Source: Gammaproteobacteria bacterium (GTDB lineage: Bacteria > Pseudomonadota > Gammaproteobacteria > Steroidobacterales > Steroidobacteraceae). From it: DNA of 64,000 nt. The translations under genes and the position numbers were made by a program. The stretch covers positions 186,001 to 250,000 of the forward strand of contig JAJPKM010000021.1 in assembly GCA_021323735.1 (NCBI GenBank), in the 5' to 3' direction. Of this stretch, positions 44,336 through 47,348 are shown piece by piece (the stretch's first letter is position 1; every line of letters begins with the position of its first letter). The notes beneath the pieces are model-generated. The model ran no database searches. It was not told where the DNA came from and was given only the letters and a program-made list of their open reading frames with translations.

Positions 44336-45586
44336 ATGGCAGAGGCAGGTCCAATTCTGGTGGTGGTGGGGGGCGAAACCAAGCGTCTGCAATGGTTGAC
44401 CCACCATGTGACCAGCCACTGGCCGAACGCCCAAGTGACCACCCTCCGTGCCGGCGAGTCGGCGCCCTTAAGCCGGCTGATCAGCGAACGTAGCCCCGAT
44501 GCCGTCATCTTACAAGCCGATTTCGCCAATGAGTCTTTGGCCAGCGCGGTGCTCAGCGTCATGGGCCAGCTGCTGCGCATGCAACCCGCCTTGCACTGCA
44601 TCCTGTTGGCGGACAACGGCAATGAAATGTCGGCGGTCCGTGCTTTGAAGGGCGGTGCCAAGGACTACCTGCCGCTGGCGCAAATCACGCGCGACCATCT
44701 GCTGACGGCCGTCGGCGAGGCCTGCGCAAAACGCCGGATCGCCGCGCAGGCTGCAGCCATGATGGCCAACAGCGAAAATTCCACGCTCATCGAGGTCCCC
44801 GGCTACTCCATCGTGAAGGAAATTGCGACCAGCAACTTCTCGTCCGTGTTCCTCGCGCGCAGCGAGCGGCTGCGCCGGAACGTGGTCCTCAAGGTGATGA
44901 CGCGCGGGGAATCCGATCGCGAGATCGGCGATGCCGAACGCTTCCAGCGCGAGTACGAAATCATTTCCAGCATCACGCACCGGGCAATTGCGGAGATTCA
45001 TGACTTCGGTTCCCAGCCCGGACACCTTTACCTGGCCATGGAATACTTTCCCTGCGGAGACCTGCGCGATCGCCTGCGCAATCCCTTGAGCGTGGAAGAA
45101 AGCCTTTACTACTTGCGTGCCATCGCAGAGGCACTGCGCGTCATCCATGTGTTCGGCATCTTGCATCGGGATCTTAAGCCCGCGAACGTCATGCTGCGTG
45201 AGGACAACTCCCCCGTCCTCATCGACTTCGGGTTGGCCCGCCGCTCGCTCGATGAAATCGGCAATACCGGGGTGGGCCAGGTGCTCGGTTCGCCGTACTA
45301 CATCAGCCCCGAACAAGCGCAGGGTCAAAGAGTGGACGCGCGCACCGACCTCTACAGCCTGGGCGTGATGTTCTACGAAATGCTCACCGGTCAGCGTCCC
45401 TATGGCGGCCGAAGTGCCGTCGCCATCATGTCGCAGCACACCAACTCGCCGGTACCCATTTTGCCGGAGTCAACGGCGATGCAGCAGCCGCTGCTCGACC
45501 GGCTCATGGCCAAGCAGCCGAGCGCGCGCTATACATCGGCGGATGAACTGCTGGCGGACTTGGGACCCATCGCCGCCGTGGCGTAG
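44336..45586 (+). CDS. Receiver-like domain fused to Ser/Thr protein kinase
   Basis: The 416-residue protein has two parts. Residues 5-125 have the length and strand pattern of a two-component receiver (PILVVVGGE, PDAVILQADF, CILLADN, GAKDYLPL), but the phospho-acceptor Asp position is Gln60 and the acidic pair at the first strand is missing, so it cannot be phosphorylated in the usual way. Residues 156-410 are a Hanks-type kinase with the ATP lysine Lys186, HRDLKPAN (277-284), DFG (297-299) and a SPEQ segment (324-327), all intact, so catalysis is expected. No membrane helix is present. The next gene encodes a histidine-kinase-like protein with a matching defect. Confidence 0.9.
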   Translation: MAEAGPILVVVGGETKRLQWLTHHVTSHWPNAQVTTLRAGESAPLSRLISERSPDAVILQADFANESLASAVLSVMGQLLRMQPALHCILLADNGNEMSAVRALKGGAKDYLPLAQITRDHLLTAVGEACAKRRIAAQAAAMMANSENSTLIEVPGYSIVKEIATSNFSSVFLARSERLRRNVVLKVMTRGESDREIGDAERFQREYEIISSITHRAIAEIHDFGSQPGHLYLAMEYFPCGDLRDRLRNPLSVEESLYYLRAIAEALRVIHVFGILHRDLKPANVMLREDNSPVLIDFGLARRSLDEIGNTGVGQVLGSPYYISPEQAQGQRVDARTDLYSLGVMFYEMLTGQRPYGGRSAVAIMSQHTNSPVPILPESTAMQQPLLDRLMAKQPSARYTSADELLADLGPIAAVA

Positions 45587-45791
45587 GACGGCATGGAGGC
45601 CTGACCGGTTCGTCTAACGGTGCCGGGCACTTCCACCTATCGCATCGGCAGCGAAGGAGCGGATGCAAGGCGCAAGCGTGACGCGTGTCACAGGCTGCTG
45701 CGTCGGCGCGCACATTAAGTCAATTGCGCCGCTTAGGCTGTGACAGCCATCATCCCCCTGATGCGCGGCGTTTGGCACCCTGTCCTATGTC

Positions 45792-47348
45792 ATGTTCATC
45801 TCCGCCAAGCGCCACGAACGCGAAAAACAGGAACTGATCAGCGCCGGCAATCGGCTGGCGGATGCCATCCTGAAGACCAGCGCGATCGGGCTGTTTCTGA
45901 TGGACGCCAAGGGCAAGATTCAGCCGCAGGTTTCCGCCTCGCTGGGCACGCTGTTCCGGCGCCAAGATTTTGCCAATCTGACGGTGGAAAAATTGCTCGG
46001 TCCCTTGGTATCGGCGAAAACATTGAGTGTGGTTCGCACTCACATGGCGCAGTTTCTGGAGACCGGCGGCAGCGAGGCAGCCGATGATCCGTTGCAGGAC
46101 GTGGAAGTCAAGTTGACCAACGTCGACGGCAGCTTCGTCAGCGCTCATTATTCCTTCGAGTTCAGCCCCGTCGAAGTCGCGAACGAAGCCCGCTCCTGGA
46201 TGGTGCGCGTCAGTGACATCACGGCGCGCACACAGCAACAGCGTGAGCTCGAGGACTTGCGCGTGCAGGTGCTCACGCAAGGCGAAATTCTGCGCAGCGT
46301 TCTTCAAGTGGGCGGCACACGATTCGGAACGTTCCTGCAAAGGACCGACGCCTCGATGAAAACCATCAACGGCGTGCTGAAGAAGCCGGCGCGCGAGGCC
46401 TCCGCCTTCCGCCACAAGCTGGAGGAGACTCTCGATGAGGTCGATCGCATCCGCCGTGATGCCGCGGCCCTCCAACTCACCGGACTGCAGGACTCGGCTC
46501 GAGACTTCGAAGACGCGCTGCAGGAACTGCGCAGCCGCGAAACCTTGAGCGGCAGCGATTTTCTGCCGCTGGCCGTCAAGCTCGATGCGCTGTACGGACA
46601 GTTCGCCAATCTGCGATCCCTGACGTCGCAGGCCGCTCCCGTGCGTGAGGCCGAGAGCACGGCGCCCGAGGCACGAGTGACGCAAAACGGCACGCAAATC
46701 ATGGAGGCGCCGAAATTTTTCGCCGAACTCGCGGCGCAGAGACAGGCGCCGGCGGCGCAGCGCGTGGCCGCCGCGGGCAGCCTGGAAAGCACTCTGGCAA
46801 CGCTGACCGACGTGGTCGCACAGGAGAATCAGAAATCCGTCGTCCTCGTGTGCAGCGGCTTGGATTTGGTACCCATGCGCTACCAAGCGACGGTGAAGAA
46901 TGTGGCGATCCAGCTCATTCGCAATGCGGTCGTGCACGGCGTCGAATCTGCCGCCGAGCGGGAGGCCGCGGGCAAGCCCGGAGATGCCACCTTGCGTCTC
47001 GAGTTCAGAGCCGTAGCGGGCAACGGTTTCGAACTAGCTTTCCAGGATGACGGACGGGGTTTGGATCCGGAGAAAGTCCGCGGCGTCGCGATCGCCAAAG
47101 GCCTCGTTACCGCGGAAGAAGCCAGTCTCCTGCGCGACCGTCAGGCCATCAAACTCATTTTCCGATCCGGCTTTACCACCATGGCCGCTGACGGCGAAAC
47201 CAAACACGGCAGCGGCATGTCGCTGGTCCGCCGTTATGTACACGAAGCCTGCGGCAAAATTGCCCTCGCCAGCGTGGTGGGTCAGGAAACCCGCTTCAAA
47301 GTCACTCTCCCCCCGCTAGATATCGCGAGTGACGCGCAAGTCGCCTGA
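45792..47348 (+). CDS. PAS/CheA-like histidine kinase with degenerate HPt helix
   Basis: The 518-residue protein has a PAS-like region (about 25-145), then an HPt-like helical region (about 196-250) that aligns with CheA HPt helices except that the phosphorylated His is Asp218 (VDRIRRDAAALQLTGL). A CheA-type ATPase follows: N-box LIRNAVVHGVE (Asn378, His382), DDGRGLDP (419-426), LIFRSGFTT, and GSGMSLVRR (473-481). No CheW-like domain follows. The kinase may phosphorylate something in trans or act as an ATP-dependent switch. The N-terminus may be cut short: an open frame from GTG at 45740 could supply a membrane helix if one base shift exists near 45770-45785. It follows the receiver-kinase gene on the same strand. 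Confidence 0.82.
   Translation: MFISAKRHEREKQELISAGNRLADAILKTSAIGLFLMDAKGKIQPQVSASLGTLFRRQDFANLTVEKLLGPLVSAKTLSVVRTHMAQFLETGGSEAADDPLQDVEVKLTNVDGSFVSAHYSFEFSPVEVANEARSWMVRVSDITARTQQQRELEDLRVQVLTQGEILRSVLQVGGTRFGTFLQRTDASMKTINGVLKKPAREASAFRHKLEETLDEVDRIRRDAAALQLTGLQDSARDFEDALQELRSRETLSGSDFLPLAVKLDALYGQFANLRSLTSQAAPVREAESTAPEARVTQNGTQIMEAPKFFAELAAQRQAPAAQRVAAAGSLESTLATLTDVVAQENQKSVVLVCSGLDLVPMRYQATVKNVAIQLIRNAVVHGVESAAEREAAGKPGDATLRLEFRAVAGNGFELAFQDDGRGLDPEKVRGVAIAKGLVTAEEASLLRDRQAIKLIFRSGFTTMAADGETKHGSGMSLVRRYVHEACGKIALASVVGQETRFKVTLPPLDIASDAQVA

Follow-up and report, generated by a model that had tools for sequence, protein, structure and literature searches.

Introduction

Proteins of two-component systems that have lost a phospho-acceptor, the pseudo-receivers and the pseudo-histidine kinases, are known kinds in the cited sections of a 2025 review (PMC12632262). 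According to the same sections, missing acceptors are rare, with 2.0% of receiver domains and 0.9% of Hpt domains affected, and the activation and inactivation mechanisms of bacterial pseudo-receivers are still a mystery. Here we describe two adjacent genes in a stretch of 64,000 nucleotides (the window, taken at its full length) from a gammaproteobacterium of the family Steroidobacteraceae (assembly GCA_021323735.1, contig JAJPKM010000021.1, positions 186,001 to 250,000). Gene 1 encodes a predicted pseudo-receiver fused to a Hanks-type Ser/Thr kinase; gene 2 encodes a PAS-like domain, a bundle resembling a histidine phosphotransfer (HPt) domain, a linker, and a CheA-type ATPase.

The pair was set beside known systems by description, and by a structure match in the case of NifL. 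DivL of Caulobacter is a pseudo-histidine kinase that has the histidine-kinase layout without the activity and works via protein contacts; unlike gene 2, it targets the histidine kinase CckA, and the cited part of the source mentions no Ser/Thr kinase partner (PMC9430884). In tomato, as far as the cited part extends, the histidine-kinase domain of an ETR1-type receptor directly binds a CTR1-like Ser/Thr kinase, and LeCTR2 bound subfamily I, not subfamily II receptors (PMC2440563); in contrast to our pair, ETR1/CTR1 is eukaryotic, is not homologous as a pair, and carries the receiver on the receptor instead of the kinase. Fungal Rim15p is also a kinase with a pseudo-receiver; there, however, the pseudo-receiver is C-terminal in a eukaryotic protein, with Glu at the Asp position in Ascomycota, and no pseudo-HPt partner is mentioned in the sections cited (PMC12632262). 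PA3346 of Pseudomonas aeruginosa fuses a receiver to an enzyme of Ser/Thr phosphorylation; unlike in gene 1, the enzyme is a phosphatase, and the receiver is phosphorylated by a histidine kinase (PMC12189002, in part). NifL combines PAS, H-domain, and GHKL domains and binds but does not hydrolyse ATP/ADP (PMC9866876, in part); it shares with gene 2 the PAS, helical, and GHKL layout and a Foldseek match (9qq6). For a conserved bacterial pseudo-receiver/pseudo-HPt pair with a Ser/Thr kinase and intermediates, no description was found in the open-licence literature.

Results

Phospho-acceptor positions of the two genes

The coordinates and reading frames given for both genes in a preliminary description of the window hold (Table 1). 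Gene 1 has a strong match to Pkinase (152.6 bits, Pfam), and its N-terminal domain scores 13.1 bits against the receiver family PF00072, below the cut-off of 30.2. In the AlphaFold2 prediction, residues 7–144 form an alternating (beta-alpha)5 domain, which points to a receiver fold; the predicted local distance difference test (pLDDT) is 68–89 in blocks across residues 1–140, and the fold is judged from secondary structure. Alignment with family members that have a canonical-looking site (L251, L252, L254, L256) gives GG for the acidic pair, Gln60 for the phospho-Asp, Ala92 for Thr, and Leu114 for Lys, as had been proposed for Gln60 and the acidic pair. As the whole domain aligns with Asp-bearing receiver-kinases and the acceptor Asp is lost, the domain is classed as a pseudo-receiver. 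At position 60, the 19 orthologues have Gln (15), His (three), or Ser (one), hence never Asp (19/19 rows). A shift of strand beta-3 making Asp62 the true acceptor was considered and rejected: the strand aligns Gln60 to the Asp of the Asp-bearing members, with Asp62 two residues later.

The Ser/Thr kinase had been called complete. Its catalytic motifs bear this out, with Lys186, Glu206, HRD 277–279, DFG 297–299, and SPE 324–326 invariant in 19/19 aligned rows, so by sequence it qualifies as a Hanks kinase. The Gly-rich loop, however, which had gone unmentioned, departs from GxGxxG: it reads EIATSNFSS (EIATSNFSSVFLA), with zero Gly. The nucleotide loop (residues 162–171) is Gly-free in every aligned orthologue.

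Gene 2 had been described as a PAS/CheA-like kinase with an intact ATPase. The ATPase part stands: HATPase_c matches with 45.9 bits (Pfam), the N, G1, and G2 boxes are present, and the best Foldseek matches are CheA P4 domains. The PAS assignment depends chiefly on the fold prediction, the sequence match being weak (12.7 bits, cut-off 22.9). Asp218 does occupy the position of the HPt His, yet the claim of an otherwise normal HPt sequence was overstated: the HxxKG of relatives is DxxRR here, so that Lys and Gly are gone as well as His, and no Pfam Hpt match is listed for the protein at E<=1. The homologous stretch of the paralogue L049 reaches 35.2 bits (cut-off 24.6). Gene 2 lacks the acceptor His of a histidine kinase and has no CheY-like neighbour gene; with its histidine-kinase homology (tree of 93 homologues) and lost phospho-His, it is classed as a pseudo-histidine kinase. 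It also lacks an N-terminal part present in the 735-aa paralogue; an upstream extension of the frame was rejected, since a stop codon lies two codons 5' of the start in the orthologue L057 (= L037).

GHKL proteins that phosphorylate Ser/Thr exist (RsbW, SpoIIAB), and the GHKL domain of gene 2 might likewise act as a protein Ser/Thr kinase, e.g., on gene 1. The GHKL fold with its ATP motifs, and the missing phospho-His, would suit this, but the best Foldseek matches are CheA P4 (RsbW was outside the comparison), and we consider it improbable.

Table 1. Positions in the window of the gene pair and its parts, and of a paralogous operon elsewhere in the same genome
Feature	Positions	Strand	Evidence
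Gene 1, 416 aa, pseudo-receiver + Hanks-type Ser/Thr kinase	44336..45586	+	Open reading frame, translation, Pfam, orthologues
Pseudo-receiver domain (predicted), residues 7-137	44354..44746	+	AlphaFold2 (beta-alpha)5 pattern; 13.1 bits to PF00072, sub-cut-off
Gln60 codon, phospho-Asp position	44513..44515	+	Strand aligned with intact members L251, L252, L254, L256
Asp62 codon, acceptor position +2; D62-F63 invariant in 19/19 aligned rows	44519..44521	+	Alignment
Hanks kinase domain, residues 155-410; Lys186, HRD 277-279, DFG 297-299 intact, Gly loop Gly-free	44798..45565	+	Pfam, alignments
Gene 2, 518 aa, PAS + HPt-like bundle + linker + CheA-P4-like ATPase	45792..47348	+	Pfam; AlphaFold2 mean pLDDT 86.2; Foldseek CheA P4 E=1.6e-14
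PAS-like domain, residues ~20-150	45849..46241	+	AlphaFold2 secondary structure; weak PAS match
HPt-like helical bundle, residues ~175-282	46314..46637	+	AlphaFold2 helices; homologous stretch of paralogue L049 matches Pfam Hpt
Asp218 codon, HPt His position	46443..46445	+	Alignments
Linker motif NGTQIMEAPKF, residues 299-309; T301 candidate phosphosite of Ser/Thr kinase	46686..46718	+	Conservation; within pLDDT <50 stretch
HATPase_c domain, residues ~331-510; N, G1, G2 boxes present	46782..47321	+	Pfam, alignment, Foldseek
Paralogous operon L049: pseudo-receiver-Ser/Thr kinase, 735-aa PAS-HPt(His)-HATPase kinase, CheY-like gene	G000 contig 58, 37284-40995		

Conservation and selection

A first scan of genome contigs with a single protein found no relative. 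Gene 2 was searched in 40 genomes, the window's own included, and the adjacent pair was found in 18 of the 23 genomes of the window's genus, i.e., beyond the single strain. It is also present in one of two further genomes of the same family (G024); the contig of G020 carries only a fragment of gene 1. Outside the genus, G344 (L211, identical with locus L073) counts as a third holder. Named copies of the orthologue loci come from metagenome-assembled Gammaproteobacteria or Proteobacteria. Across the order, 310 of 396 genomes have receiver-kinase matches at E<=1e-60, although some matches span the kinase part alone.

The pair has a fixed place between conserved housekeeping genes: ThrA, YgiQ, and DegQ flank it on one side, two acyl-CoA carboxylase subunits on the other. 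Among 18 orthologue loci, DegQ recurs in 16, YgiQ in 15, and the carboxylase subunits in 12 and 10, such neighbours being visible only in loci that reach far enough. The ratio of nonsynonymous to synonymous substitution rates (dN/dS), computed from dN and dS for the three least saturated pairs, is 0.06–0.14 for the kinase and the pseudo-receiver and 0.07–0.26 for parts of gene 2; comparisons with the window itself are near dS saturation and were excluded from the ratios.

Because the pair is found in 18/23 genomes, in a fixed place, and under purifying selection, these sequence comparisons argue that the loss of acceptors is clearly not local decay. That both genes might be relics under relaxed selection, with no joint function, is accordingly very improbable: relatives do differ at the His position (D, V, S, R, A, G, E, T), and some of them have lost the G2 box, but the domains have dN/dS of 0.06–0.26, the frames are intact, and both adjacency and neighbours are kept. 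The earlier proposal of a rewired rather than decayed pathway, with both ATP sites retained, thus stands, given the conservation of the pair, the loss of the acceptors in the orthologues examined, and purifying selection on both genes.

The histidine, the CheY-like gene, and the receiver-kinase

Through gene 2 we reached 123 loci (the window, L049, L050, L051–L130, and L161–L200, many near-copies from Psychrobacter included). Of these, 94 have the His and a CheY-like gene, five have both together with a receiver-Ser/Thr kinase, and one (L195) has the His and the kinase without CheY; L195 has also lost the KG of the motif. A CheY-like gene, i.e., a CheY-like frame within 4 kb by stop-to-stop distances, is thus found near 99 of 100 His-bearing loci and near 0 of the 23 loci without His, all 23 of which have the receiver-kinase nearby. 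The state with His and CheY is widespread, including Psychrobacter and Rhodocyclaceae.

A set of 93 rows was used for the tree and the motif; left out were most near-copies, the truncated L073, and the weak L242, and eleven loci from L231–L249 were added. The latter were found through the kinase and are kinase-bearing by choice; their lack of CheY is taken from the locus listing, and where a contig ends soon after gene 2, a CheY gene may lie beyond. The tree, unrooted, was built without the HPt columns.

The position of the HPt His, read in 83 rows, is H in 61, D in 18, R in two, V in one, and S in one. Asp218 is fixed in the window's genus (18/18 rows, none with His), V and S are seen in a sister genus, R in L071, L080, and L194, and R, S, A, G, D, V, E, A, S, T, and T in the eleven further paired loci. 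Asp218, whose conservation the preliminary description had proposed to check, is thus fixed within the genus and not beyond it; Gln60 is shared by 15/19 rows. A special family-wide role of Asp218 is not supported, relatives having V, S, R, A, G, E, T, or D there, and its use as a family-wide substitute acceptor or phosphomimic was rejected. The receiver-Ser/Thr kinases of L071, L080, and L194 also have a long linker between receiver and kinase with repeated HIATHTGA-type motifs.

On the receiver side, position 60 was read in 68 receiver-kinase proteins: Asp is kept in 13, Gly is found in eight, and another residue in 47. The Asp is lost in 39 of 39 kinase-fused receivers that have an adjacent same-strand homologue of gene 2 (that of L242 being weak). 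It is also lost in 16 of 28 without such a partner, so that the loss is not strictly tied to the partner; L168, where receiver-kinase and gene-2 homologue stand back to back and the Asp is kept, is set apart. Position 60 is Ile in the paralogue L049 and Phe in L050.

The L049 operon, a paralogue of the pair in the same genome, has both genes as homologues (44% identity over the kinase domain, 35% over gene 2) in the same order; unlike the pair, it keeps the HPt His (RQVHSVKGEAA), has a CheY gene directly downstream, and its PAS-HPt-ATPase kinase has a longer N-terminus, membrane-bound in appearance (735-aa frame, by eye). In L049, L050, L169, and L171, degenerate kinase-fused receivers thus already occur next to gene-2 homologues that retain His and CheY. 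The preliminary description had seen in the two lost residues the ends of a single His-to-Asp relay. This is contradicted, because the paralogue keeps His and CheY while its fused receiver is already degenerate; judging by gene neighbourhood, the relay partner of this histidine-kinase family is a separate CheY-like gene. Among relatives, we see His with CheY alone; an Asp-bearing receiver-kinase back to back with His and CheY; a pseudo-receiver-kinase in one operon with His and CheY; and a pseudo-receiver-kinase with neither.

A His-bearing paralogue with CheY in the same genome would also offer gene 2 a role as a histidine kinase in trans, phosphorylating the HPt His of the contig 58 paralogue or a CheA. 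Split CheA proteins such as CheA3/CheA4 of Rhodobacter sphaeroides are a precedent, and the N, G1, and G2 boxes of gene 2 in the window are intact. However, four of the 18 pair-bearing genomes (G001, G007, G010, G016; completeness 91–99%) show no second full-length homologue at E<=1e-10, three of them having shorter ATPase matches in large open frames and G007 none, and several His-less homologues have damaged G2 boxes. Because of these four genomes, trans-phosphorylation of the paralogue was not adopted as the general function, and we regard the trans role as unlikely.

A conserved motif in the linker of gene 2

The linker between the HPt-like bundle and the ATPase is modelled as disordered (residues 284–323, pLDDT <50). 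Within it, the genus consensus T-[DE]-N-G-T-Q-I-I-[ED]-A-P-[KR]-F forms an island of conservation, with T301 in 16/18 and P307 in 17/18 rows, most flanking positions being common to far fewer rows. The strict pattern is found in 19 of 33 His-less rows vs 0 of 60 His-bearing rows, and the former include the distant clade L071/L080/L194 (as GTTIRQP). Outside the linker region, the strict motif has 0 matches in the 93 rows; the linker of L063 has two copies in tandem, and a degenerate DNA pattern for the motif of the window has a single match in the 4.2 Mb genome, at gene 2.

Beside a Ser/Thr kinase gene, the GTQII-type Thr (T301) in this disordered linker is, as a fair guess, the best candidate phosphosite. 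One mechanism proposed earlier, phosphorylation of gene 2 by the Ser/Thr kinase, thus gains a candidate site from the sequence. Linkers of the His-bearing kinases L184, L188, L190, L193, and L049 contain [GRA]DT[AT]V[IL] motifs resembling Ser/Thr kinase or FHA motifs; all but L049 (4/5) are without an adjacent receiver-kinase gene.

Other contexts of receiver-kinase genes

The Asp-bearing L251, L252, L254, and L256, from related families, are receiver-Ser/Thr kinase fusions like gene 1 (frames of 410–474 aa); in contrast to gene 1, the acidic pair, Asp, and Lys are present, and in contrast to the pair, no gene-2 homologue was found in the stretch examined. An OmpR-type regulator comes next (by Pfam for L252, by eye for the other three); in L252, proteins of 198 aa and 640 aa come after it, the latter with an OmpA match below threshold. 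The receiver-kinase genes of L255, L257, and L263 directly follow an amidophosphoribosyltransferase-like gene (GATase and phosphoribosyltransferase domains), and the receiver Asp is kept in L255 and L263, not in L257. In L268, L269, L270, and L248, an Asp-less receiver-kinase without a gene-2 homologue is followed by a glycosyltransferase-like gene (by eye).

Discussion

The pair is probably a former two-component sensor that has lost its acceptors and turned from histidine signalling into a regulator or target of the neighbouring Ser/Thr kinase. As the best explanation, to which we give an even chance, gene 2 is a pseudo-histidine kinase and the dedicated partner of the pseudo-receiver/Ser/Thr kinase of gene 1. 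Homology, conservation, the pattern of losses, selection, and the linker motif are the observations on which it is built.

The order of losses would be as follows. The ancestor of gene 2 would have been a membrane-bound PAS-HPt-ATPase kinase working with its own CheY-like receiver; a receiver-kinase gene would then have joined it, giving the state of L049, L050, L169, and L171; and the CheY-like gene would have been lost, after which the His was free to drift. In the window's lineage, the membrane part of gene 2, its CheY partner, and the phospho-His would all have disappeared. The tree being unrooted, we infer the direction of this series.

In the present pair, the PAS domain of gene 2 and its ATP-bound GHKL domain may set a conformation; the HPt-like bundle may dock the pseudo-receiver, which would probably be the contact, and so hold the kinase of gene 1. 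Gene 2, as a sensor using its PAS domain and nucleotide state, would both regulate gene 1 and be its substrate, the kinase phosphorylating it at the conserved linker Thr (GTQII). The output would be via Ser/Thr phosphorylation, perhaps read by FHA proteins, for which the same genome has six matches. Parts of this scheme have precedents: a pseudo-histidine kinase that works via contacts in DivL, and a histidine-kinase domain bound to a Ser/Thr kinase in the tomato receptor. The second mechanism proposed earlier, in which the receiver-like domain would dock on the HPt-like bundle, is possible. The full version is more tentative, and we regard it as a doubtful conjecture: that a whole two-component sensor became the regulatory subunit of a Ser/Thr kinase, the old receiver and HPt surfaces docking, PAS and ATP state gating the kinase, and the GTQII Thr serving as phosphosite, so that a His-to-Asp relay changed stepwise into a Ser/Thr circuit with living intermediates.

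Several observations weigh against the explanation that we prefer. The labels on the tree change once for CheY and twice for His, leaving two independent pairs and an uninformative sign test; with about one transition, the correlation of His, CheY, and Ser/Thr kinase is no statistical proof of function, and it was dropped as a test. Among the 33 His-less rows, 14 lack the strict motif; L060, L061, and L065 from the window's genus belong to these, as do all eleven loci from L231–L249. Members that keep the Asp and have no neighbouring gene-2 homologue share the conserved alpha-1 stretch HHxTSxWP of the receiver, which is thus no evidence for docking to gene 2; being family-wide, it was rejected as proof of contact with the HPt-like bundle. 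Finally, L235 and L236 have lost the G2 box, and in L061 and L066–L068 of the genus it is degenerate; ATP turnover is therefore not kept throughout.

The G2 damage suggests that ATP binding rather than turnover matters, as in NifL. NifL keeps a conserved His, and its partner NifA is a transcription activator. A NifL-like alternative would make gene 2 a nucleotide-controlled regulator of a third protein, with the adjoining Ser/Thr kinase as only one of the regulators of gene 2. The PAS, helical, and GHKL layout and the NifL–NifA complex among the Foldseek matches (9qq6, E=5.2e-10) speak for it; however, the locus of the pair holds no third signalling gene, the shared neighbours being ThrA, YgiQ, DegQ, and carboxylase subunits on the other strand (a target elsewhere in the genome is possible), and we rate it as rather unlikely.

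Such pairs are easily missed, since a domain census leaves out some proteins, hypothetical or partial, that have no His or Asp, according to the part of the source cited (PMC4558063). Here, a pseudo-receiver and a pseudo-HPt stand in adjacent genes and their relatives are found in several states; this series makes the binding partner of a pseudo-receiver, and the takeover of a histidine kinase by a Ser/Thr kinase, directly testable questions.

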